Shown: positions 5,636 to 18,541 of the stretch, in pieces | Layout of the letters: the number at the start of each line of letters is the position of its first letter | Numbering within the stretch: the stretch's first letter is position 1 | Assembly: GCA_034439475.1 (NCBI GenBank) | Contig: JAWXAN010000022.1 | Span: 1-39,974, forward strand | DNA length: 39,974 nucleotides | Reading direction: 5' to 3' | Source of the DNA: Candidatus Zixiibacteriota bacterium | Lineage (GTDB): Bacteria; Zixibacteria; MSB-5A5; GN15; FEB-12 | Made by a program: the position numbers and the translations under genes | The notes under the pieces: model-generated | What the model saw: the letters and a program-made list of their open reading frames with translations, nothing else | Databases searched by the model: none | Told to the model about the DNA's origin: nothing

Positions 5636-7216
5636 CTAAAGCTTGAGCGAAGAATGAAGGTACTTGATTTCACCATCTATGATGGTCGCGAGGATCTCGG
5701 TATTTTCAACTCTCGCAGGAGTAACCGCGGTGATATCGTGCTCAAGGATAGTCAAATCGGCTGGATAGCCTGTCTGCAGATAGCCTCGGCAGTGCTCCTG
5801 ACCGCAGGCATAGGCCGCACCAGCGGTGAAACCGTGGATGGCTTCGGTGACAGAAAGCCTTTCTTCGGGATAAAATCGTGTCCTTTTGTTTGGCAGTGAC
5901 CGTCTGACAGCAGCGGCTATCCCTGCAAGCGGGTCAAGCGGCTCAATGGGGACATCGGAGCCGAACGCGAGATGAATGCCGCGCTTCCTTAATGTTTTGA
6001 AAAGATAGGTGTCCTTGCCTCGCTTTCCCCAAGAACGATGGATCATTTCGATATCTGAGGGACAGTGCGATGGCTGCATTGAGGCGATAACATGCAGCTT
6101 TTTGAAACGGGCGATGTCGCTTCTGCGAATCAGTTGCAAATGCTCTATACGATGTCTCGCCCCATTCATGAGTCGCGGGGCAGACTCGTAGACATCGAGC
6201 ACATTTGAAACGGCCTTGTCTCCTATGGCATGGATTGCACATGGAAATCCGAGATGGGCGGCCTGTTTGGCGGCGAGGAGCATGTCCGATTTTGAAGCAG
6301 TTTCGATTCCGCAGTTGTTTTTCGAACCAATGAAGGGCTTGAAACAGAGAGCGGTTTGGCTGCCAAGAGTGCCATCGGCGAAAAGCTTTATTCCTGCAAA
6401 ACGAAAGAACTCAGTGCCCGTCCCATAACGGGTTTTGCTCTTAATCAGGTCAGGCAACATCTGTACTCGGGGATAGTGATTGATCCGTAAGCCTAAAGTA
6501 TTTTTTTCGGCCCGCTCCAGATAGAATGGCAGCGCGATAGGACTGTCGAAAGAATGCACGCCTGTGACGCCTTTACAGTATGCTATTCCAAGGGTTTTAT
6601 CATACAGGCCATTCATTTCACTTTTGGATGGCAGCGGAATAAAACTGAACATATACTCGAAGGCTATGGCCTCGCGTAAAATGCCTGTTGGCATTTTATC
6701 GGGAAAACGCACGATCTCGCCGTCTTTAGGATCGGAGGTCGCTGAGGTTATACCTGCTATTTCCAGGGCTTTGCTGTTCACCCAGACTGAATGGTGGTCT
6801 TTGGCGAATACAAATGCCGGCCGCCCTGCGCTGACGCTGTCGAGCATATAGCGGTCCGGCTCTTGGCGAGTTTTGAAACCTTCGGGCGAGTAGCCTTCTC
6901 CGACTATCCATCCGCCACGCGGGACGGTTTTCGCAAACTGTTCGATTTTGCTCAGACAGGCGGTTATTGAGGTCAAGCCATGAAGCGAAACGCGTCCCAG
7001 AGACATGGCGAAATAATATAAATGCGCGTGAGCATCTACCAAACCGGGCACGACCATTTTTTTCTTAAGGTCGAGACGCCGAAAGTTTCTAAAGTCTGCT
7101 GAATTGCGAAGATTGTTCCCTACGACGACAATTTTCTCCTTGTCTATAACAATTGAATCCACGACCTGTCCATTTGATTGTGTGTGGACACAGCCGTTAT
7201 AGAGAAGGATTTTCAT
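5636..7216 (-). CDS. YtcJ-like metal-dependent amidohydrolase
   Basis: A 526-residue member of the amidohydrolase superfamily, YtcJ/Amidohydro_3 branch: a TIM-barrel metal hydrolase with flanking beta-sandwich. Visible features are DAHAHL (H63, H65), KLFADGTLGSQTA (about 270-285), HAIGDKAV and HRIEHLQL (later metal-site histidines), and FGSDVPIEPLDPLAGI (active-site Asp) near the C-terminus. The substrate cannot be read from sequence; family members act on varied amides, ureas and formamides. No signal peptide is seen, so it is probably cytoplasmic. Its ATG overlaps the end of selB by 20 bases, so translation is probably coupled. A link to selenium metabolism is not supported beyond this overlap. 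Confidence 0.92.
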   Translation of the reverse strand: MKILLYNGCVHTQSNGQVVDSIVIDKEKIVVVGNNLRNSADFRNFRRLDLKKKMVVPGLVDAHAHLYYFAMSLGRVSLHGLTSITACLSKIEQFAKTVPRGGWIVGEGYSPEGFKTRQEPDRYMLDSVSAGRPAFVFAKDHHSVWVNSKALEIAGITSATSDPKDGEIVRFPDKMPTGILREAIAFEYMFSFIPLPSKSEMNGLYDKTLGIAYCKGVTGVHSFDSPIALPFYLERAEKNTLGLRINHYPRVQMLPDLIKSKTRYGTGTEFFRFAGIKLFADGTLGSQTALCFKPFIGSKNNCGIETASKSDMLLAAKQAAHLGFPCAIHAIGDKAVSNVLDVYESAPRLMNGARHRIEHLQLIRRSDIARFKKLHVIASMQPSHCPSDIEMIHRSWGKRGKDTYLFKTLRKRGIHLAFGSDVPIEPLDPLAGIAAAVRRSLPNKRTRFYPEERLSVTEAIHGFTAGAAYACGQEHCRGYLQTGYPADLTILEHDITAVTPARVENTEILATIIDGEIKYLHSSLKL

Positions 7217-9101
7217 CGTTGAACTTATTCCCTTTCATGCGGAAATCTCCCTCGCGGTGGGTCAACTGGATTCTGTCGGTCTCTTCAAGAATTGGAATTG
7301 CGTATTTGCGGGTAAATCCGAATCGGTCACGAAGGTCGGCCACAGCCAGCTTGGTTGAGGTATTCAGTTTGTCTTTGACAAATGAGACAACTTCCTGCCA
7401 CACGGGGAAAAGGAACACAAACTCAGAGCCGCATTTGTATCCTTCACAGCTGTCAATAATATGCTTAATTGCCTGCTGATAGATCTTCCCTTTTGAGGCG
7501 AAAGTGCTAATGTCGGGAGGTGCGTATGGATGGGCATGCAGCTCTTTCATTACTGTCTCGTAAGCTTCTTTGATAATTCCTTTCAGGGTCACCGTCCTGC
7601 CGGCAATATCATATCCATCGATCACTTTAACCAGCGAACCCGAGCCGACAAGATAATCCATCAGAACAGACACATTAGAAGATGACAATGAAATATGCTT
7701 GGCGAGCGCTTCAGGAGCTATCCCTCTGAGATGGGGCTGGGCTTTAAAAATGTTTGCCATTTGTTCGATGAGTTTTTTGCCGATTTCAGCGACGGTCGGA
7801 TAATAAAACAAATGCTCTCCGAATCGTCCTATCATTCCCCCGACCAGAAGGTTTTCAATATCCAACTTTATTGCATTAGATGAGATATTTGCATTCTCCA
7901 GAAAATTCGTCTCGGGCGTCATAATAGATTTTTCAAGCTCTGAGAGAATGAGAGATTGCGTAGTAAAGTCTGCTCTTGATTTCAGATACGAAAGGTTTTC
8001 AAGTTCCTTGCGCCTTGGAAATACGGAAAAATGATCGAGAACTTGTCCTCCGCCAAGTGTGATCATTGGGGTGGCCAGGCGAAGAATAAAGTGATCACCG
8101 ACAAGTGTGTACATCGGCTCATCCGGTCGAAAAAAGATTATGCCGCTTTCGCCGGGTTTCAATGCTTCGGCGTCGAATATCCTGACCTCGCCTTTGGATT
8201 CACTTGTTCCGATGAGCAAAAGCGCGCGTCTACGGTCCTCAAGCTCCAGTAGCGCATCTACGGTCATCTCCATGTGAAGAGCAAGCACAGGGTTTTCTTT
8301 AAAGTAAGAGAGATCAGCCCGGTCGCTTACTCCCCCCCCGCGGGTAAGATTGACTTTGTCGATGCCTCCAAGTGAGACGGCAACTCTTGTTCCCGGAGTT
8401 ACACGGTCTGCATCATAACCCATCGATTGAAGCGAACGAATTTTGCCCGATTCTCCCGACGGCCAAACCGTCACCATCTGACCTTGGGTCAATGTACCTC
8501 CACGCAGTGTGCCGGTAACCACCCCGCCAATTCCTGTTTGTATAAAGGACCTGTCTATTGCAAGACGGGCTTTACCAATGTCGTCTTTCTGTTTGATCAT
8601 CGCTGGAAGATTATTTAGAAATTTAATAAGTGGATCGAATCCCTCTCCGGTCGCCGCTGAGACGCGAAAGATTGGGACATTCGCAAGAGGTGAGCCAGCT
8701 GTCTTTTCACGTACTTCCTTCTCGAGCAAGTCAATCCACTCATTTTGAGCGAGGTCGATTTTGTTGATGATGATGATGCCCTGCTCAATTCCGAGCAGTC
8801 GAATTATCTGAAAATGTTCCTGGCTCTGGGGCATCCAGCCGTCGTCAGCGGCTATAACAAGCATGACGACATCTATTCCCCCTGCGCCTGCAATCATGTT
8901 TTTTACAAAGCGTTCATGCCCGGGGACATCGACGAAGGCTATATCATCGCCATGCGAAGTGCTATAGAAGGCAAAGCCCAGATCTATGGTCATCCCACGG
9001 GCTTTCTCCTCGGGCAGTCTGTCAGGATCAGTACCGGTCAGCCGCTTGACGATAGATGACTTGCCATGGTCGATATGTCCGGCGGTGCCTATGATGATCA
9101 T
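7197..9101 (-). CDS. selB: Selenocysteine-specific elongation factor SelB
   Basis: GTPase that binds Sec-tRNA(Sec) and the SECIS mRNA hairpin and delivers selenocysteine at UGA codons. Length is 634 aa against about 615 in Escherichia coli. The N-terminus has G1 [12 protein letters not shown] (5-16), the RGMTIDLGF effector segment that separates SelB from EF-Tu (RGITI), G3 DVPGHERFV and G4 NKID. Domains II and III follow, then a C-terminal array of winged helices (about 370-634) for SECIS binding, including [26 protein letters not shown] near the end. It starts 8 bases after the selA stop. A run of eight G codes for glycines near base 8335. Identification is firm, supported by selA next to it and selC 12 kb away. 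Confidence 0.97.
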
Positions 9102-9109
9102 GGGCTAAA

Positions 9110-10510
9110 TCATTCGTATCTGGGGAGGTCGCTTCGGTCGACAATGATGCGGAGAGCTGTCGTCAAATAGGCGTCCTGTGATGAATCGACGGCTTTAATA
9201 TCTATAAGGAAAGTATTGTTCTCTACGCGTCCGATTATGGGCGGTGAAAAACGACGAAAACGCGCCGCCAGTCCTTGGGCATGATAATCCTCCGAAAAGC
9301 GAATCGCGACTGATGGTATGTCGGCTTCGGGAAGCGCTCCCCCCCCAACGTAGGCTTTTGTGCCGGTTACGGTAATCTCTTTGGGAAATCCGAGATTTGC
9401 TTCGATAGCTTTGGCCCGCTTATATAATTCAGATTCAGGAACTGAGAGAATCTGCCAGAGTTTTATGTCTTGCATGTATGTCCCGCTCAGGTACGACGAC
9501 AGCAGTTTCTCAAGCACCGCAAAAACAATCTTGTCGACCCTCAATGCTCTAAAGAGCGGGTTCCTCTTAATCTTTGCAATAAGTTTGGCATTCCCGACAA
9601 TCAAACCGGACTGAACGCCACCAAGCATTTTATCTCCCGAAAAACAGGTCAGATCTACCCCGGCCCTGACTGACTGTTGGACTGTGGGCTCCCGATATCC
9701 GAGTATTTTTTCGGTCTGAACAAAGACTCCGCTGCCTAAATCATTGCAGACCGGGATTTCATGGCTTCGTCCGAGTTCAACAAGGGCAGCCAGAGGAACT
9801 TCTTCGCTGAACCCGGCTTGGATGAAATTACTTTTATGAACTTTGAGTATCAGTCCGGTATTGTCGGTAATGGCCAAAGCATAATCTGCGAGATATGTAA
9901 TGTTTGTTGTCCCCACCTCGACCAATTTGGCTCCGGCGCGTTTCAATATGTCTGGAATGCGGAATCCCCCTCCGATTTGGACCAGTTCGCCGCGAGAGAT
10001 GATAACATCTTTTTTATTCGCCAGCGTGTTGAGAATTATGAAAAGCGCAGCGGCGCAATTATTGACTACTGTTCCGGATTCGGCATCAGAGAGCAAAGCA
10101 AGGTAGCTCTCACACATTTCTCCCCGGCTCCCCCGCGCGCCTTTTTCAATATCGAACTCCACGTTACTGTATCCTATGATGGTCGTTTTGATGGCCTCGA
10201 ATACGGATTCCGAAAGCGGGGAACGTCCAAGATTTGTATGGACAACTATCCCAGTGGCGTTTATGACCGGCTGGATTCTATACCTATTCAAGGCTTCGAT
10301 ATCATCAGAGATGGCGATAAACAGCTCGTCTTCTTTGAGTGAAACTGGTTTTACGGAAAAATCGTATTTTACTCTCTCAACAGTCTGGCGGACGACGCAT
10401 GCCACCATCTGTCGCGGTAATAGCGATGAAACCGCTTTCAGTCTGTCATCACTGAGCAGTTCATCGATGGAGGGGAAATCTCTGAGCTTTGTTATAAGTT
10501 TTTGGGCCAT
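9110..10510 (-). CDS. selA: L-seryl-tRNA(Sec) selenium transferase
   Basis: PLP enzyme that converts Ser-tRNA(Sec) to Sec-tRNA(Sec) using selenophosphate. I chose the ATG at 10510 (MAQKLITKLRDFPSIDELL, 466 aa), which matches the family N-terminus; an ATG 22 codons earlier lies deep inside the preceding gene. Key features are NATGIVVHTNLGRSPL (about 84-99), NNCAAALFI, SRGELVQIGGGFRIPDI and CFSGDKMLGGVQSG, with Lys294 as the PLP lysine (Lys295 in E. coli). Its start overlaps the end of the M28 gene by 19 bases, and selB follows 8 bases after its stop, forming a classic selAB pair. This bacterial SelA route contrasts with the archaeal/eukaryal PSTK-SepSecS route. Confidence 0.97.
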   Translation of the reverse strand: MAQKLITKLRDFPSIDELLSDDRLKAVSSLLPRQMVACVVRQTVERVKYDFSVKPVSLKEDELFIAISDDIEALNRYRIQPVINATGIVVHTNLGRSPLSESVFEAIKTTIIGYSNVEFDIEKGARGSRGEMCESYLALLSDAESGTVVNNCAAALFIILNTLANKKDVIISRGELVQIGGGFRIPDILKRAGAKLVEVGTTNITYLADYALAITDNTGLILKVHKSNFIQAGFSEEVPLAALVELGRSHEIPVCNDLGSGVFVQTEKILGYREPTVQQSVRAGVDLTCFSGDKMLGGVQSGLIVGNAKLIAKIKRNPLFRALRVDKIVFAVLEKLLSSYLSGTYMQDIKLWQILSVPESELYKRAKAIEANLGFPKEITVTGTKAYVGGGALPEADIPSVAIRFSEDYHAQGLAARFRRFSPPIIGRVENNTFLIDIKAVDSSQDAYLTTALRIIVDRSDLPRYE

Positions 10511-11418
10511 TGCGATGAATTGTAAAGTATGTGCGCAATTACTCGTCCGACATTCGCCAATGATTCTGCTGAGCATTTATCGGGCGTGTCATGTTCTGTG
10601 TGCCAGTAGATGTAATCGAAATCAATGAGAACAACAGATGGCACTCCTCCGGCATTTAGCGATAGATGGTCATCCTGTATCGGATATTTTACCGAATCGA
10701 TAAAAGTAGTCACATTTAGCTGCGATGCTGTTTTCCAAATATAATCATTGAGTGTCGGTACAAATGTCTGAGAATAAAATTCGCGGTAAATCTGCTGGCT
10801 TTTGTCTCCAACCATATCTATGACGATTCCGAAATGATATTTATCCCGGATTCCAAGAGACGCAAAATGACGCGATCCCAACAAATACCAATCACCGTCT
10901 CCGGGTTTGCCCCAGTCCTCTCCATCGACACAGACCAAATCTACATTAGCGACAGGCGCGGACACGGCAAGCATATTGGCCAATTCCATTAATATGGCAA
11001 CACCTGAGCCGGCATCGTTGGCTCCATCAATTGCAAGTTCACTCTTGGACGAGTCGAAAGCGTGTTCTGCGCGGGGACGGCAATCATAGTGCGCCATAAG
11101 CAGGATGGCTTTGGAATCCGATTTGTCGCCTCTAAAACTTGCAATAAGGTTTACAAGCGGAATCTGATTGTTTGAATAGGGATCGTCAAAAGTCATCGAC
11201 TGGCTGTCCACAGCCAAGCCTTTGGAGACAAAGTGCCTCTTGAGGTAGTCTCTGCATTCCGCCGATGCAACACTTCCTGGAACCCGAGGGCCAAAGGCAA
11301 CCTGCTGTTCTATGTAGGTTAGGGCCTGTGCGCCGTCAAAATCTGTAGTGCTAATCTTTGAGGCACAGCCCAGAAGAAGAATTGCGCTCAGTATTGGTAC
11401 AAGATATTCGAGTGTCAT
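10492..11418 (-). CDS. M28-family lipoprotein, glutaminyl-cyclase-like
   Basis: A 308-residue exported zinc protein. The N-terminus ends in L-L-G-C (Cys18), a clear lipobox, so it is probably anchored in a membrane facing the periplasm or surface. Metal and catalytic motifs of the M28 fold are present: AHYD (H110), DGANDAGSG (D135), VDGEDWG (E167-D168), VIDMVGD (D201) and WHTEHD (H273). The segment PIQDDHLSLNAGGVPSVVLID followed by WHT closely resembles the PIEDDH...WHT region of glutaminyl-peptide cyclotransferases rather than typical aminopeptidases. I therefore favour a glutaminyl cyclase making N-terminal pyroglutamate; an aminopeptidase remains possible. It lies between sprA (46-base gap) and selA (19-base overlap). 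Confidence 0.8.
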   Translation of the reverse strand: MTLEYLVPILSAILLLGCASKISTTDFDGAQALTYIEQQVAFGPRVPGSVASAECRDYLKRHFVSKGLAVDSQSMTFDDPYSNNQIPLVNLIASFRGDKSDSKAILLMAHYDCRPRAEHAFDSSKSELAIDGANDAGSGVAILMELANMLAVSAPVANVDLVCVDGEDWGKPGDGDWYLLGSRHFASLGIRDKYHFGIVIDMVGDKSQQIYREFYSQTFVPTLNDYIWKTASQLNVTTFIDSVKYPIQDDHLSLNAGGVPSVVLIDFDYIYWHTEHDTPDKCSAESLANVGRVIAHILYNSSQWPKNL

Positions 11419-11423
11419 AGCCC

Positions 11424-11452
11424 AATCTGCTTAGCAGAGAAGGGCTTGTCAA
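11424..11452 (-). promoter_or_regulatory. Possible promoter of M28 gene
   Basis: In the 46-base gap after sprA, minus-strand TTGACA (11447-11452, perfect) is followed after 17 bases by CAGATT (11424-11429, weak). Five bases then precede the ATG at 11418, which has no clear Shine-Dalgarno. If real, the mRNA for the M28-selA-selB-amidohydrolase set would be leaderless or nearly so. Confidence 0.4.
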
Positions 11453-11464
11453 ATCAAAAAGCGA

Positions 11465-14400
11465 TTAGAACTTAATCTCAGTCCAAATCTGCAACTGGCG
11501 GACATGTGTGTTTCTACCAAGCTTATCGCTCGTATCTTGCCACATTGCAGATAAGCCGCCTTGTATTTGTTGACTAAACGTATAGGAAATTGTGGGGGCG
11601 ATGGAAAAGTCCGACTTATCTGTTGTAAGTCTTCGAATTCCGACGACTGGTATTGTTTCGCTTTGGTCTCCGGAGAACCTGGCGGTGACTTCCAAAGCCA
11701 TTTGAGACTTGAACTTCACTTTACCAAATAATGGGACGGAAATACCGCCTGGTGCGCTGAATGAATATTTCGCGGTAAAGGCCAGTCTTTTCTGCTTTCC
11801 AACGGAATTGCTTTGTCGTTTTCCATCGAATGTCCCAAACTGCTCGGTAAGCGTCTTGGTTAGCGCGTACGAACTCGACATCGATAAGGCTCTGAAGAGT
11901 TTGAAGTTGACCGAGAGAAGGGGGTTGAAGTTCTCCGTAGTCGTTCGGTTCGAGGTAAAGTTTCCATCTAACTCGACCGTTTCGCGGGTTTGGCGCGAAT
12001 AGCCTGTCCGAGGAGCAAAGACTTCGATGAATTTGTTCACATATGGCTTAATAATCGGTAACGTGGTAAACTTTTGAATCGAAACCGAGACATCAGGCCA
12101 CGAGGTTGAAATTTGTTCCTGTCGCGGACCAACCCTGAAAAGATCCCGCGTAATAGACTGTCTGAACCGGACATCAATAAGTAGGCCCCCAAGCAGTCTG
12201 AAACCTGAGCCGAGATCATAGCTAACTCCCTCACTTGAAAAGGGAGAGCGCGGATCATCGCTGCTGCGAAGCCCATCGGGGTCATCTTTGAAGCCAAATT
12301 GGTAGCCGTACGATGACCGTGTAAGCATTCCAGGCGTGCTGTTATTGTAAGTTTTAGCGTATTTGTACGTTATCGGTTTTATCCATCCCGTCAGGAGTCG
12401 AAGAATAGTCAGCGGCGGATCATAGATCGGTCTGCCGTCCACCTTCGGTTCTTCTTTCTTCGCCTGAATCCGGTTTGAATCGGCGAGAGTGGAGTCTATA
12501 ACGGTAGAATCAGTGATGATGGTGTCACTTGGATTCGGTGTATTTTGAGCAACGCGCGAAGCTGACGGCCGATTGGTTGACTTCCAGGGCTTGCCGAGAA
12601 GTAGCATATGATTAAAGGTGCCATTCACGCTCCAGTTTCGAGCAAGATTGGCGGCTCGGGTTTCAGAGGTACGGTCGTATACATCACCGTACGTGGACCC
12701 ATAGGACAGGGCGGTTGTAAGAAATTTCAATAGCTTTGGATCATAGCTCGCGGAGAATGTCTGACCGTAGTTTGTTTCAAGCCCCAGCTTGAAATTACCC
12801 GGCTTGAGGGAAACGCCTTCAATATCGGCCAAGTCACGGACAGTGTTCATTGAATAAGAGGTCGAGAGGTTTTGAAATATCTCATAGCTGAGACTTGTCC
12901 GGCCATTGAAACTTCTTGAAAGCGATGTTTTCGGCTTGCCGTTTCTATCCTCGCTTATTTGTATCGAGCGATCAAACCGGCCCGACCAATCCCAGCTCTG
13001 GGGATAGATACCAAGTTTCGTGCCGTCCAGTCGTTTGAGCAGGGGAATATCTTTGGCCCATCCAAATATTGACAATCGAGGAAGATTCTTTAGACCCATA
13101 TCGTACGAGGCATTTACATTGTAATTCTCAGAAAAATTGCGGGGGTTATTCACCGAGGTGAGCATTGAACGAGCATACGAGTATGAGACTTTCTGACGAT
13201 TCAAAAGAACATTAAACAGCGGACTTTTGCCTTTTCGCTGGAATGATTCTGAAATTGAGATGCTGCGCCGATTGCTAAATGTCTGCTCGGCGAGCCGCAC
13301 GTCTTCAGGAAGGACAATGTCCGAGTTTGTCCGTAAGAGAGGGACAAGTCTGGTCTGGCTAAAGCTATAACTTATAGGTAAGCGCGCTGTCCACGATTTC
13401 GGTAAAAACTTGTCTGCGTTAAATGTGACTCCATAGTTATAGGCTGAATTAGTGCTTCCACTGCCAAGATTATCGCTGGCTCCAGCCCTGTTGGCAGTTG
13501 AAAGACCGCGGAAGTAAGGGTCTTTTTGTTCGAGACCAAAATTATAGTTAAACAGGTCAGCGGCTGTGCCATTTACGCTAAAGCGATAGGCCGTGCCGAT
13601 ATCTTTTCTGACATCGGTAACGCGAAGTTCATCGAGCCAGACTTCGCCAGTAATCGGCTGACTGCTTTCATTGACAACACCGGCCGCAAAGTAGGAAATG
13701 TCATTAATACTGGGGCGACCATTAATTCGATAATTACCGGAAGTGACATTGAGAAAGGCATTTACACTATCCTTTGCCCTGAGCGCCGAATCTTTTATTC
13801 CGGTTATGGCATTAAAGTCAATGTCGACAAAGTTCCGCTCGTCCCAGCCCGGATGCACAAATGTGGAATATTCATAAAAGTTAACTGAGTCGCGGCCAGC
13901 CCTCAAAAAGAATCGAACAGAATCGCTGACACTGGTAATGGGGCCATGGACATACATCTGCAGGTGTCTATACCCGGAATACCTTTCGATTGAAACCAAG
14001 TTCTTTTTTGCGATACCGGTATCATTTGGCTGAAGATTCTCATAGCTGAGCGAGAGAGCGCGTTGTGCCTCGGTTACGTTATTGGTCCTGTCAAAATAGG
14101 CCTCGACTCCGGGCGGAGGTGTGAAGTTTACATTTTCTTCGTCGCTGACCGATGCTACAACAAATTTCGATTGCTGCTGCTCAGGGAGATTCAAGTTTGC
14201 TGAGTCGACGTGAACAGAATCCTGCCAGTTTGATTGGACAAAATACCAGTTGGCAACTTCAACTGTATCATTTTCTACTCTGAATTCTTCGGTGTTAAAC
14301 CAGACTCTCACATATCGAATGAAATCCCAATCGGGTTTGCCGATCGAATCGGTTAAGGCGCGGCTGTCCCTTATTGGCAGACGATAGGTGCGCCAGTTGG

Positions 14401-17400
14401 TTCCGTCCGGCAAGATCTTCTCGGAACCGGGCACCAAAAAGGAGTCGCTTGCAAGGTCTATCGTGAAGGAATAATAATCGTTGAGGGTCTGGAACTGGTC
14501 TGCAAATGTTTCTTTATCAGGGGTAGTTTGGATACCATCGGCCACTCTATTTCCCTCAGTGCCATTGAGCCATTCATAAAATCGAGGATCTTCCACATTA
14601 AAGCGAACATTCGTGCACTGCCCTGGAGGAAGCGGGCAGACACCTTCCTTACCGTTAAACCAATTATCACCATTTGGGTCCGGATTTGTCACCAGATTAT
14701 AACCGGGCTCCTGTCCATCCGAAAGTCCGTCAATCCCAATATCTTCCTCTTCGGTAATTGCTTTATTCCGATCCTTATCTTCAGTGTCAGGAGCATTATT
14801 GCCATTGACATCTTCGGTGATTTGCCCGAAATCCAGATGAATCTTTCCGGTTCGTCCTTTAACCCGCATTTCGAAGAGTTGCACTCGTGACTTATCGATT
14901 CTGTTTCCAATATGTCGGAGAATGCCTGCCCATGCCTTGGTATCGGAAGTATCTGCTCCAGACGTATCTGCGTTGACTTTAGCTGGTCTAAAAATCATCC
15001 TGAATGGCGTCAATGTCCCTTCGCCTTGTGGTCTTTCTCCTTCATAAACATCGCTGAAGGCAATGGCGTGCGTGTTATGCCACAACATTTTGCTTCTATT
15101 ATATCCCAGGCCAACAAGTTGCTGCGGCAAGGCAGCAAGTGTCCAACTCTGATATGACATACCAATTGAAACCTGCTCTAGAGCTGACTCGAAATCATCA
15201 ATATATGCCTCGCCTCCAACATTTGGGTTGGGGCGGGATTGCGCTACTTCAGCGCTGAACTGCATAGTAGACGGGGCTTCGGTGGTCAAAGCAGGGAGGG
15301 CATTAATGGCTTTTGTCAGAAAGCCGGGATAGATGCGAAAACCCATATCAAAATCCAGCACAAGTCCCTTTGACGTCTCCTGCCCGACACGGGGCTTACG
15401 GTCTTGGGCCTTATCTGATTTGTAGAGAACAGTTGTCCCGAAGGAGAGATCGCGGCTCCATTCATATTCGGCGCGGGCCCCGAACAACGTCTTCTTAGCG
15501 AGAGTCAGGAAGGGGGCATATTCAAACTCAACCTTCAGATCGGCATTGGGATCGTTGGCCACATCACTGATGAGCGTTAGTTGGCCGAAATCGTACTGAA
15601 TGTTATAATCCTCACCCTTGGTAAGCAATTGCCCGTTGAGCATTACACGTTCCGAACCTTCAATAATGTTCGTGCGGTTTAACCGAATTATCGAGCTTCG
15701 TGTCTTGGATGAATACTGAATGTAATACTGTGAAGCATTGGCCGAAGCCTGAGAGCCCGGAACATCTGAGTAAATGATCGAGTTTCGCGCCGTCTTACTC
15801 AAAATATTTGTGGCCGTGCCATTTTCGTCTACAAACGTAGTATCAGAATTGAAGGGCGTTCGGCTTGGGAAAATAAGCAGACCCCAATCACTTCGGTATA
15901 TCTCGCGGCGAGTATCTATTAAGCCGTCGGGCTGCTGAGCAGATCCATTGTACTGGTCAAGTCCCAGTATCTCAATAAAGTTCCCTTCAGGTGTCCCGGT
16001 CGTACTGAGCTGATATTCAAGCGCCGCAACTGTTCCTTCCTGACCCGCCTTGCCTTTGAAAATCTTTAAACTCAGGTCTTCGGCGCCGCCTGCTTTTGGA
16101 ACGCTATATACGTTTCGCCACATTAACGGCCAAGTCTTACTTGTAGATCGAAAGTACTGTCCCGGCCGTGTACGAATATATTTAAGGATATAGTTTGATC
16201 CTGTAATATCTCCGACGGTTTGAATTGTTCCATCGGCGCGTTTAATAATCATGAATACACCCATCGCTTCGCGGCGAGAAGACGTAAACTGCAGGTAATG
16301 CAGGTTTTTTATCGTATCCTGTTCCAGAGTAAAGTTGTCACGAGTCAACTCTTTGACCTCGAGAGAATCTTTCGCCGAGGACTCCTCGGGAAATAGAGTC
16401 CTGTCAAAGGTGTTTATGTAAAGTGTGGCTGGTATAGGGTTGGTTCCATTTTGAGCGCTTATGTCCTTCGGGAGAACTTCAAATACTTGGACACTGAGAA
16501 CAAAATCGCCTTTTTTGAATCCTATACCGTCGATATTGGAGCTATCGGCGTATCCAAGGTCATACAGACGCCCTTCGGCATAGGACAAATCTCGAATCCA
16601 TGTTGCATCTTCGAGACCACCAGCATTAATGGTGGCCCGCTCCGAAGAGCCTTTTTCCTGTGAGGCAATGGCGGTAAGCGTCAGGTTGCCAAGCTGAGCC
16701 TCGGTTTTGAGTCCAAAGAGTCCTTGAATCGTCGATGAATAGCCGACAAACTGGGTTCGCTTTAAGTCGAGGGTTGTGTTGCCCGCTTCAATGGTCTTCA
16801 GTATGTCGTCCTCGTCCCCCTTATATCTGAGCTGAATTCGATTTGCAAGCGGAATATCGGTTTGGTTATCCTGGGAAACTTTGACTGATATCTTGGTTCC
16901 AATCGTACCGGCGATCTCGAATCGGGATATTTGCTCCATATTAAGCGATGGAAATCTACTCGGCTGGACTAATCCTGCCGCCGCGCCATCGGTCCACTGA
17001 GACCTGCCTGAAAGCGTGATTCTCCGATAGCCGGAGACACGGAGATTTCCGCCGCCTTCGCCAAAAATCTTATCAAACCGCTTGGGTAAATCTATACCAA
17101 CCGATAGCCCGCTTCGTTTTCTTCCACTTTGAGCTTCGGCGATTGACTTTGAGACGGAACTACTAAATCTCTGCCGCAGTAGTATAGAAGTCCGGTAAGC
17201 GTTAAACAGCTCAGCATCGACAGATACTGGTATCAGCTCACCCTTAGCCGCATACGGGGTTACAAAAGTGAGACTTTTGGCGGAATGACTGCTGGATTTG
17301 AGAAGCGGCTTAAATTGAAGCGGCTCAGAGAGGATTGAATAAGGCTTGGCCCCAAGGGCCACGGAGAAAAGCTCGCTTTGGGGTTTATAGCGAGAAACGA

Positions 17401-17554
17401 CCGGAGGCGGGTCGTCAAAGGTGGCGCTGAACCGTCCATCAGCATACGCCGCCTTGGCTCCAAGAAGGAGCATGGCCGCGCATGAGGAGAAGGCTATGAA
17501 CTTTCTTACAAACTGTAGGTGCACTGCCCAACTTTTGGTTAGATACGTCTTCAA
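11465..17554 (-). CDS. sprA: SprA-like giant outer-membrane protein (type IX translocon)
   Basis: At 2029 residues this is the largest gene here. SprA/Sov proteins form the outer-membrane translocon of the type IX secretion system, a very large beta barrel. The N-terminus (LQFVRKFIAFSSCAAMLLLGAKAAYA, then D) is a signal peptide. Much of the body alternates polar and aromatic residues like barrel strands. Motifs such as GNLRVSGYRRITLSGRSQWTDG, QLRYKGDEDDILKTIEAGN and PNVGGEAYIDDFE are familiar from SprA/T9SS-translocon families. An Asp/Asn-rich insert (about 910-975) resembles calcium-binding loops. The reading frame opens with TTG at 17554; GTG at 17524 is an alternative and neither has a well-spaced Shine-Dalgarno. 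No other T9SS component (PorK-PorN, PorU, PorV) is in the window, so secretion function is inference. Confidence 0.88.
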   Translation of the reverse strand: MKTYLTKSWAVHLQFVRKFIAFSSCAAMLLLGAKAAYADGRFSATFDDPPPVVSRYKPQSELFSVALGAKPYSILSEPLQFKPLLKSSSHSAKSLTFVTPYAAKGELIPVSVDAELFNAYRTSILLRQRFSSSVSKSIAEAQSGRKRSGLSVGIDLPKRFDKIFGEGGGNLRVSGYRRITLSGRSQWTDGAAAGLVQPSRFPSLNMEQISRFEIAGTIGTKISVKVSQDNQTDIPLANRIQLRYKGDEDDILKTIEAGNTTLDLKRTQFVGYSSTIQGLFGLKTEAQLGNLTLTAIASQEKGSSERATINAGGLEDATWIRDLSYAEGRLYDLGYADSSNIDGIGFKKGDFVLSVQVFEVLPKDISAQNGTNPIPATLYINTFDRTLFPEESSAKDSLEVKELTRDNFTLEQDTIKNLHYLQFTSSRREAMGVFMIIKRADGTIQTVGDITGSNYILKYIRTRPGQYFRSTSKTWPLMWRNVYSVPKAGGAEDLSLKIFKGKAGQEGTVAALEYQLSTTGTPEGNFIEILGLDQYNGSAQQPDGLIDTRREIYRSDWGLLIFPSRTPFNSDTTFVDENGTATNILSKTARNSIIYSDVPGSQASANASQYYIQYSSKTRSSIIRLNRTNIIEGSERVMLNGQLLTKGEDYNIQYDFGQLTLISDVANDPNADLKVEFEYAPFLTLAKKTLFGARAEYEWSRDLSFGTTVLYKSDKAQDRKPRVGQETSKGLVLDFDMGFRIYPGFLTKAINALPALTTEAPSTMQFSAEVAQSRPNPNVGGEAYIDDFESALEQVSIGMSYQSWTLAALPQQLVGLGYNRSKMLWHNTHAIAFSDVYEGERPQGEGTLTPFRMIFRPAKVNADTSGADTSDTKAWAGILRHIGNRIDKSRVQLFEMRVKGRTGKIHLDFGQITEDVNGNNAPDTEDKDRNKAITEEEDIGIDGLSDGQEPGYNLVTNPDPNGDNWFNGKEGVCPLPPGQCTNVRFNVEDPRFYEWLNGTEGNRVADGIQTTPDKETFADQFQTLNDYYSFTIDLASDSFLVPGSEKILPDGTNWRTYRLPIRDSRALTDSIGKPDWDFIRYVRVWFNTEEFRVENDTVEVANWYFVQSNWQDSVHVDSANLNLPEQQQSKFVVASVSDEENVNFTPPPGVEAYFDRTNNVTEAQRALSLSYENLQPNDTGIAKKNLVSIERYSGYRHLQMYVHGPITSVSDSVRFFLRAGRDSVNFYEYSTFVHPGWDERNFVDIDFNAITGIKDSALRAKDSVNAFLNVTSGNYRINGRPSINDISYFAAGVVNESSQPITGEVWLDELRVTDVRKDIGTAYRFSVNGTAADLFNYNFGLEQKDPYFRGLSTANRAGASDNLGSGSTNSAYNYGVTFNADKFLPKSWTARLPISYSFSQTRLVPLLRTNSDIVLPEDVRLAEQTFSNRRSISISESFQRKGKSPLFNVLLNRQKVSYSYARSMLTSVNNPRNFSENYNVNASYDMGLKNLPRLSIFGWAKDIPLLKRLDGTKLGIYPQSWDWSGRFDRSIQISEDRNGKPKTSLSRSFNGRTSLSYEIFQNLSTSYSMNTVRDLADIEGVSLKPGNFKLGLETNYGQTFSASYDPKLLKFLTTALSYGSTYGDVYDRTSETRAANLARNWSVNGTFNHMLLLGKPWKSTNRPSASRVAQNTPNPSDTIITDSTVIDSTLADSNRIQAKKEEPKVDGRPIYDPPLTILRLLTGWIKPITYKYAKTYNNSTPGMLTRSSYGYQFGFKDDPDGLRSSDDPRSPFSSEGVSYDLGSGFRLLGGLLIDVRFRQSITRDLFRVGPRQEQISTSWPDVSVSIQKFTTLPIIKPYVNKFIEVFAPRTGYSRQTRETVELDGNFTSNRTTTENFNPLLSVNFKLFRALSMSSSYALTKTLTEQFGTFDGKRQSNSVGKQKRLAFTAKYSFSAPGGISVPLFGKVKFKSQMALEVTARFSGDQSETIPVVGIRRLTTDKSDFSIAPTISYTFSQQIQGGLSAMWQDTSDKLGRNTHVRQLQIWTEIKF

Positions 17555-17587: not shown

Positions 17588-18541
17588 TTAGAATTTGCCA
17601 ATGGTTTGGACTTCTTCGTTTAGCATTATACCGAATTTCTCGAATACACGCTTCTTCATTATATCGGCCAAGGACCGAATATCTCGCGAGGTCGCCGTGC
17701 CAGTGTTGACGATAATATTGGCATGTTTCTCAAAAACCTTCGCTCCACCAACCGAAAGACCCTTGGCGCCGACTTCTTCAAGTAACCTACCAGCAGGAAG
17801 CTTGCCGTATTGCTCACGCGGATCGGGAATATTTTTAAAAAAACAGCCTGCCGATTTTCCGGCATTGGGGTGTTTCGTTTCGCGAAGCTTAAGGATATCG
17901 TCTACCTTTTGTTGTATCTCACTACTATTCCCCGGCTGCAGAGCCAGCTTCACACTGACAACAACTTCGTGGCTGACTTTGAGGAAGGAATCCCGATAGC
18001 TGAACCGGCAATAATCCGGAGCAACAACTTTGAGGCGTCCTTCAATATCGACCAAAGTAACCTCGGTCGTTATCTGGCCAATTTCTCCGCCGAAGGCTCC
18101 GGCGTTGCCATAAACGGCTCCACCAACAGAGCCCCAAATTCCGGCCGCAAACTCGGCTCCGGTCAAGTTCTGGTTTGTGGCGAAATCAACCAATGCCATA
18201 AGATCTTCTCCGGCTCCGCATTCAATCCCATTAGGTTCTATGCGAGTCAATCCACGGACGTCAACTTTGATTATAAGTCCATCGAACCCTTCATCTGAGA
18301 TCAGCAGATTCGATCCGCCGCCGATTAGGAAAAAATTAAGCTTCAGCTTTTTTGCGGCAGAGATCGCCTTGGCTATTTCAACGGCGGATACGGCGGTGAT
18401 AAAATATTTCGCGCGCCCGCCAGTTTTATAGCTGGTCAGCGGGGCCAGCTCTTTGTTCCATTCAAGAGAATGCCCAAATGCCGCTTGGACGGTCTGTAGA
18501 GTAAGGTCATTGCTCACCGAGAGTTGCTCTGTCATTGTCAT
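17588..18541 (-). CDS. murB: UDP-N-acetylenolpyruvoylglucosamine reductase
   Basis: FAD enzyme that reduces UDP-GlcNAc-enolpyruvate to UDP-MurNAc with NADPH in cytoplasmic peptidoglycan precursor synthesis. The 317 residues carry TSYKTGGRAKYF (36-47), the FAD-binding IGGGSNLLISDEGFDGLII (73-91), AAGIWGSVGGAVYGNAGAFGGEI (132-154), SYRDSFLK (181-188) and the C-terminal Glu pair LNEEVQ (E309/E310). The position of the catalytic serine that reprotonates the intermediate (GSxFKN) is Cys233 here (AGCFFKN). The ATG at 18541 lies six bases after a good -10 box; the ATG at 18535 has AAAAGGA five bases before it and is an equal candidate. It is the first gene before sprA, 33 bases away. Confidence 0.95.
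   Translation of the reverse strand: MTMTEQLSVSNDLTLQTVQAAFGHSLEWNKELAPLTSYKTGGRAKYFITAVSAVEIAKAISAAKKLKLNFFLIGGGSNLLISDEGFDGLIIKVDVRGLTRIEPNGIECGAGEDLMALVDFATNQNLTGAEFAAGIWGSVGGAVYGNAGAFGGEIGQITTEVTLVDIEGRLKVVAPDYCRFSYRDSFLKVSHEVVVSVKLALQPGNSSEIQQKVDDILKLRETKHPNAGKSAGCFFKNIPDPREQYGKLPAGRLLEEVGAKGLSVGGAKVFEKHANIIVNTGTATSRDIRSLADIMKKRVFEKFGIMLNEEVQTIGKF

Follow-up and report, generated by a model that had tools for sequence, protein, structure and literature searches.

A conserved gene pair of the translocon gene sprA and a type II glutaminyl cyclase in Zixibacteria and other phyla outside Bacteroidota

Analysis of a 39,974-nucleotide stretch of DNA (the window, which is contig 22 of a 2.66-Mb genome that is 98.7% complete) revealed that sprA, the gene of the outer-membrane translocon of the type IX secretion system (T9SS), is followed on the same strand by a gene for a predicted lipoprotein of the type II glutaminyl cyclase (QC) kind, and that this pair is held together in at least seven phyla outside Bacteroidota. 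The organism is a Zixibacterium, an FCB-group bacterium outside Bacteroidota, because most of the closest named QC loci come from Candidatus Zixiibacteriota and the same gene block is found there. The conserved pairing outside Bacteroidota appears to be unreported in the open-licence PMC papers searched; its parts are of known kinds. Searches of the same papers for any that connect glutaminyl cyclase to the neighbourhood of SprA, or type IX secretion to Zixibacteria, returned nothing relevant. In the searched literature, pyroglutamate capping is treated as a speciality of Bacteroidetes that co-occurs with the T9SS, with no mechanistic tie found, and genetic linkage of the two outside Bacteroidota had no earlier demonstration there.

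The sprA gene and the adjoining glutaminyl cyclase gene

The open reading frame at 11465..17554 on the minus strand (2029 aa) matched the NCBIfam model TIGR04189 with 586 bits (E 1.5e-175; cut-off 200) and Pfam SprA_N (PF14349) with 80 bits, and the SprA structures PDB 6h3i and 6h3j matched it with E of about 3e-41 to 4e-41; this was the single SprA match across the whole genome. The listed start codon is TTG; starting instead at a GTG about 30 bp downstream improves the predicted signal peptide, which is then cut between ...KAAYA and DGRF, so that the +1 residue of SprA is Asp. A gap of 46 bp (11419..11464, minus strand), in which a terminator-like site was sought and none was found, separates sprA from a 308-aa reading frame (10492..11418, minus strand), to which Pfam gave the name Peptidase_M28 (E 5e-32) and no other; a promoter scan stayed at chance level. 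Neither gene is broken, and dozens of genomes conserve both over almost their full length, which excludes chance.

The best solved relative of the 308-aa protein was the Tannerella forsythia QC (PDB 6qro, E 2e-45), followed by other bacteroidal QCs, and the sequence PIQDDH...YWHT is present at residues 246-274. A QC profile built from 43 sequences matched bacteroidal QCs with E of 1e-93 to 3e-103, compared with 2e-28 for the best aminopeptidase, YwaD, and about 4e-8 for the classical bacterial leucyl aminopeptidase (1amp, 1rtq). Foldseek comparison of the AlphaFold model (pLDDT 94.8) gave TM values of 0.82-0.90 to bacteroidal QCs versus 0.69-0.78 to the S. griseus aminopeptidase; QCs of bacteroidal or other bacterial type filled ranks 1-13, with a TM to target of at most 0.91, and the first aminopeptidase stood at rank 33 (TMq 0.69). 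The genome contains a single copy of this gene.

The predicted zinc ligands D135, D168 and H273 and the predicted catalytic residues E167 and D201 are invariant in 43/43 aligned sequences. A Glu-Glu motif is a mark of aminopeptidases. The protein has Glu-Asp at this place, and the second zinc ligand is the Asp of the bacteroidal-QC type (E167-D168) in all 43 sequences; bacteroidal QCs have their own special zinc-ligand Asp (PMC7948796). The residue that follows the first zinc-ligand Asp is consistently Asn or Asp in aminopeptidases and is Gly150 in the Porphyromonas gingivalis enzyme, PgQC (PMC7948796); here it is Ala136, and the alignment holds Gly in 41 sequences, Ala in one and Ser in one, never Asn or Asp. 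The M28 aminopeptidase marks are therefore both absent, with Glu-Asp in place of Glu-Glu and Ala/Gly in place of Asn/Asp. An aminopeptidase that trims the N-termini of secreted proteins is thus a very improbable reading, and it was rejected on the profile, the Foldseek result and the site residues. It could appeal to the M28 fold, to Peptidase_M28 as the sole Pfam name and to some PDB relatives that were deposited as leucine aminopeptidases, but those deposits (3tc8, 4fuu, 3gux) have been re-assigned as QC-like (PMC7948796), and QCs are far ahead in both the profile and the fold rankings. By sequence and modelled fold, the M28-fold protein is a type II QC of the bacteroidal branch and not an aminopeptidase, with cyclase activity predicted.

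A lipobox-like LLLGC, with Cys18 as its last residue, is present in the QC, and most Zixibacterial relatives have retained this Cys. The n-region, MTLEYLVP, has no positive charge; the protein is thus likely a lipoprotein, as judged from its sequence, though its signal is not typical. The first-pass annotation had described a SprA-type gene with the gene of a cyclase-like M28-fold lipoprotein 46 bp on, and both the arrangement and the cyclase-like assignment were upheld, since the family matches confirm the two genes and the profile, the site residues and the structure alignment place the lipoprotein with the QCs.

Conservation and loss of the pair

Within Zixibacteria the pair lies in a conserved block, recG-DUF1844-murB-sprA-QC-selA-selB. 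The upstream neighbour of sprA in the window is murB (17588..18541, minus strand; PF02873/PF01565 and synteny) and the downstream neighbour of the QC gene is selA (9110..10576, minus strand; PF03841 and synteny), whose likely true start (MAQKLITK) is at about 10510, adjoining or overlapping the QC stop. The selA and selB genes directly follow the QC gene (window 7197-10576), from which the organism probably uses selenocysteine. The window also contains bshB1, bshA and bshC in a row (22101-25710), a complete-looking set for bacillithiol biosynthesis.

The order was represented by 61 genomes. The QC, called present at E below 1e-30, was in 47 of them, and in 44 of these 47 comparison of coordinates showed its gene immediately downstream of sprA and on the same strand; the exceptions were G006, G027 and G056. 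A wider survey covered 80 named loci from a GTDB scan, which were picked for their resemblance to the QC of Zixibacteria; the following counts are therefore no per-phylum frequencies. With a gap of 0-314 bp, sprA was directly upstream of the QC gene in the Zixibacteria loci and also in Gemmatimonadota (9 loci), Calditrichota (3), Marinimicrobia (2), KSB1 (1), Latescibacterota (1) and Krumholzibacteriota (1). One MAG labelled Bacteroidetes (HyVt-473) contains the pair and groups with KSB1. Adjacency was absent at the surveyed loci of Bacteroidales/Muribaculaceae, Ignavibacteria/Kryptonia and Fibrobacterota, and at 7 other Gemmatimonadota loci. The genes murB, selA and recG were not found flanking the pair outside Zixibacteria; the other neighbours have changed there and the pair itself persists. 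The comparison of sprA neighbourhoods proposed in the first-pass annotation thus revealed a conserved pair, in the order and in six other phyla, and its suggestion that a host outside Bacteroidota would extend the link was borne out for the host and for the gene linkage. An apparent duplication of the pair in one Gemmatimonadota MAG (L130, L155) was dropped, since the SprA stretch of L130 is identical to that of another MAG and contamination is likely.

The QC tree is ordered broadly by phylum, and rows with the linked pair are spread over it, with 6 state changes compared with 14 in shuffles. The pattern is compatible with an old linkage that was lost later in some lineages, on a tree without a root and hence without a direction for gain or loss. 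Cases of loss were found at three loci (L003, L023, L026), where sprA is directly followed by selA and the QC gene is cleanly missing, and in the genome G007 (98% complete), which keeps sprA and has no type II QC. Since the QC has been lost in relatives that keep sprA, it is not required for the retention of sprA. G007 carries two tandem type I (beta-propeller, PF05096) QCs with lipoprotein-like signals (G007:C6:86643-88174; L308, L310). Among the 61 genomes, type I QC occurred in 2/14 without and 3/47 with type II QC (p 0.32); replacement of type II by type I QC was suggestive in G007 only, had no significance overall, and was set aside.

Secretion components and Gln at the +1 position

The genome contains one full-length PorU match (654 bits over 1093/1095 positions), nine matches to the PorV family above cut-off (on contigs C42, C28, C60, C27, C76, C23 and C7) and 30 T9SS type A C-terminal domains (CTDs; TIGR04183) above cut-off. 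Some of the nine PorV-family proteins could be shuttle proteins like those described for Flavobacterium johnsoniae (PMC12618676). GldM/PorM (TIGR03517) was not recognised in this genome nor in the relatives G009 and G007, and the same search found it in two Bacteroidales genomes used as controls; the motor may have diverged beyond the reach of the model, or the lineage may have another one. The expectation of further T9SS genes in the genome therefore held for PorU, PorV and the CTDs, with GldM/PorM unrecognised by its model. The PorU gene and an 889-aa reading frame directly after it lie at contig C28:10966-16970 (loci L061, L070). An insert of ~550 residues with a two-component-regulator propeller repeat (PF19572, 1.1e-17; PF07494) interrupts the PorV barrel encoded by the 889-aa frame; this is perhaps a PorV-propeller fusion that resembles PorV-PorZ.

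Gln at the first mature residue (+1) was counted with a home-made region-scoring signal-peptide predictor that is blind to +1, in a 430-kb sample of this genome that included the window and 20 stretches around T9SS cargo genes and was therefore not random. The predictor mixes in lipoproteins and membrane helices and underestimates Gln at +1: on Bacteroidota loci it gave 5/21 (24%), versus about 8/13 by hand reading. In the Zixibacterial sample Gln was the commonest +1 residue (13/47, 28%), as against a 3.5% share of Gln in the 30 residues that follow (p about 6e-9), and stretches of E. coli K-12 gave 0/25 (Fisher p 0.003 versus this genome). Hand reading of the signal-peptide list of this genome gave about 17/58. 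In CTD cargo with a readable signal peptide, Gln was found in about 5/22 and Asp was equally common.

Comparison by QC status showed no measurable difference: QC-bearing relatives pooled with this genome had Gln at +1 in 22/111 and relatives lacking QC in 12/65, so that a lowering of Gln at +1 by QC loss was unsupported. The Gln excess is real but falls short of the Bacteroidetes Q-rule, and with the numbers sampled here it could not be seen to depend on the QC gene. In Bacteroidetes the mean is 71% and nearly all exceed 48% (PMC5837995); the mark of the rule, that about half of the signal peptidase I substrates or more have Gln at +1, is not reached by the 28% found here with a predictor that underestimates. 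The genome is like Bacteroidetes under the Q-rule (PMC5837995, PMC10653852) in having a QC and in showing Gln more often than any other residue at +1, and unlike them in its 28% versus the 71% mean, a value within the continuum reported outside Bacteroidetes (PMC5837995). An excess of Gln at +1, as predicted by the first-pass annotation, was therefore seen over background and E. coli, whereas the level stayed at 28% and T9SS cargo had no further preference.

Capping, export and comparison with known systems

The explanation that we consider probable overall is a co-inherited sprA-QC unit in which the QC would cap a minority of the exported proteins, those that start with Gln. The two-gene unit, sprA and then the gene of a membrane-anchored type II QC, would act in a Zixibacterial T9SS of reduced recognisable make-up, consisting of SprA, PorU, the PorV family and cargo with type A CTDs. 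Signal peptidase I would cut the exported proteins, a QC facing the periplasm would convert those starting with Gln to pyroglutamate, and the pyroglutamate would shield the N-terminus from aminopeptidases; the substrates may include a minority of the T9SS cargo. The pair would be old in FCB phyla outside Bacteroidota and probably co-transcribed, so that translocon and capping enzyme may be made together. We infer the catalytic activity of the QC, its side of the membrane, its co-transcription with sprA and its substrate set.

The adjacency may also be neutral inherited synteny, with the QC serving all Sec substrates as a general enzyme of the periplasm and having no functional tie to the T9SS, and we regard this as the less probable, though still substantial, alternative. 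The whole block from recG to selB is conserved inside Zixibacteria, the QC has been lost or moved while sprA stays (G006, G007, G026, G027), T9SS export in P. gingivalis was found not to be controlled by cyclisation (PMC5837995), and Gln at +1 is not concentrated in T9SS cargo, all of which are consistent with such neutrality; however, the pair persists in six other phyla with its other neighbours changed, and a neutral adjacency is expected to break over such distances. A further reading, which we consider unlikely, is that the FCB T9SS ancestrally had sprA-QC as a functional unit, with the QC acting at the translocon on clients that emerge or are docked there; in Bacteroidota, capping would later have been extended to every exported protein (the Q-rule) and the gene linkage broken. 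Direct coupling of QC capping to T9SS export is possible. The proposal that export and N-terminal capping are linked thus stands as genetic linkage with a partial Gln excess, and was not supported by T9SS cargo, by the comparison of QC-bearing and QC-lacking relatives or by the loss of QC beside sprA. A pair conserved in so many phyla, and kept despite changed neighbours, is an independent genomic reason to test a tie between capping and the T9SS; it names the lineages for such a test, and the natural losses, sprA without QC, serve as controls.

Like the T9SS of Bacteroidota, that of the Zixibacterium includes SprA, PorU, the PorV family and TIGR04183 CTDs; unlike it, there is no recognised GldM/PorM, and sprA adjoins the QC gene, which was unseen in Bacteroidales loci. 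The survey of PMC5837995 makes no mention of SprA or of gene neighbourhood. The Zixibacterial QC shares with PgQC and the T. forsythia enzyme, TfQC (6qql, 6qro), the fold, the D-D-H zinc site, the catalytic E and D, the WHT and, as predicted, the N-terminal lipid anchor, at 31-34% identity; it differs from them in its host outside Bacteroidota, in the position of its gene directly after sprA, in the about 28% Gln at +1 and in a shorter loop before the WHT (IDFDY versus a longer insert). The QCs of Fimbriiglobus ruber (7d1b) and Acidobacteriales (7d18) are likewise type II QCs outside Bacteroidota, and they match the Zixibacterial QC profile more weakly (E 6e-74 and 1e-44, respectively); 7d1b shares the IDFDYxxWH end.
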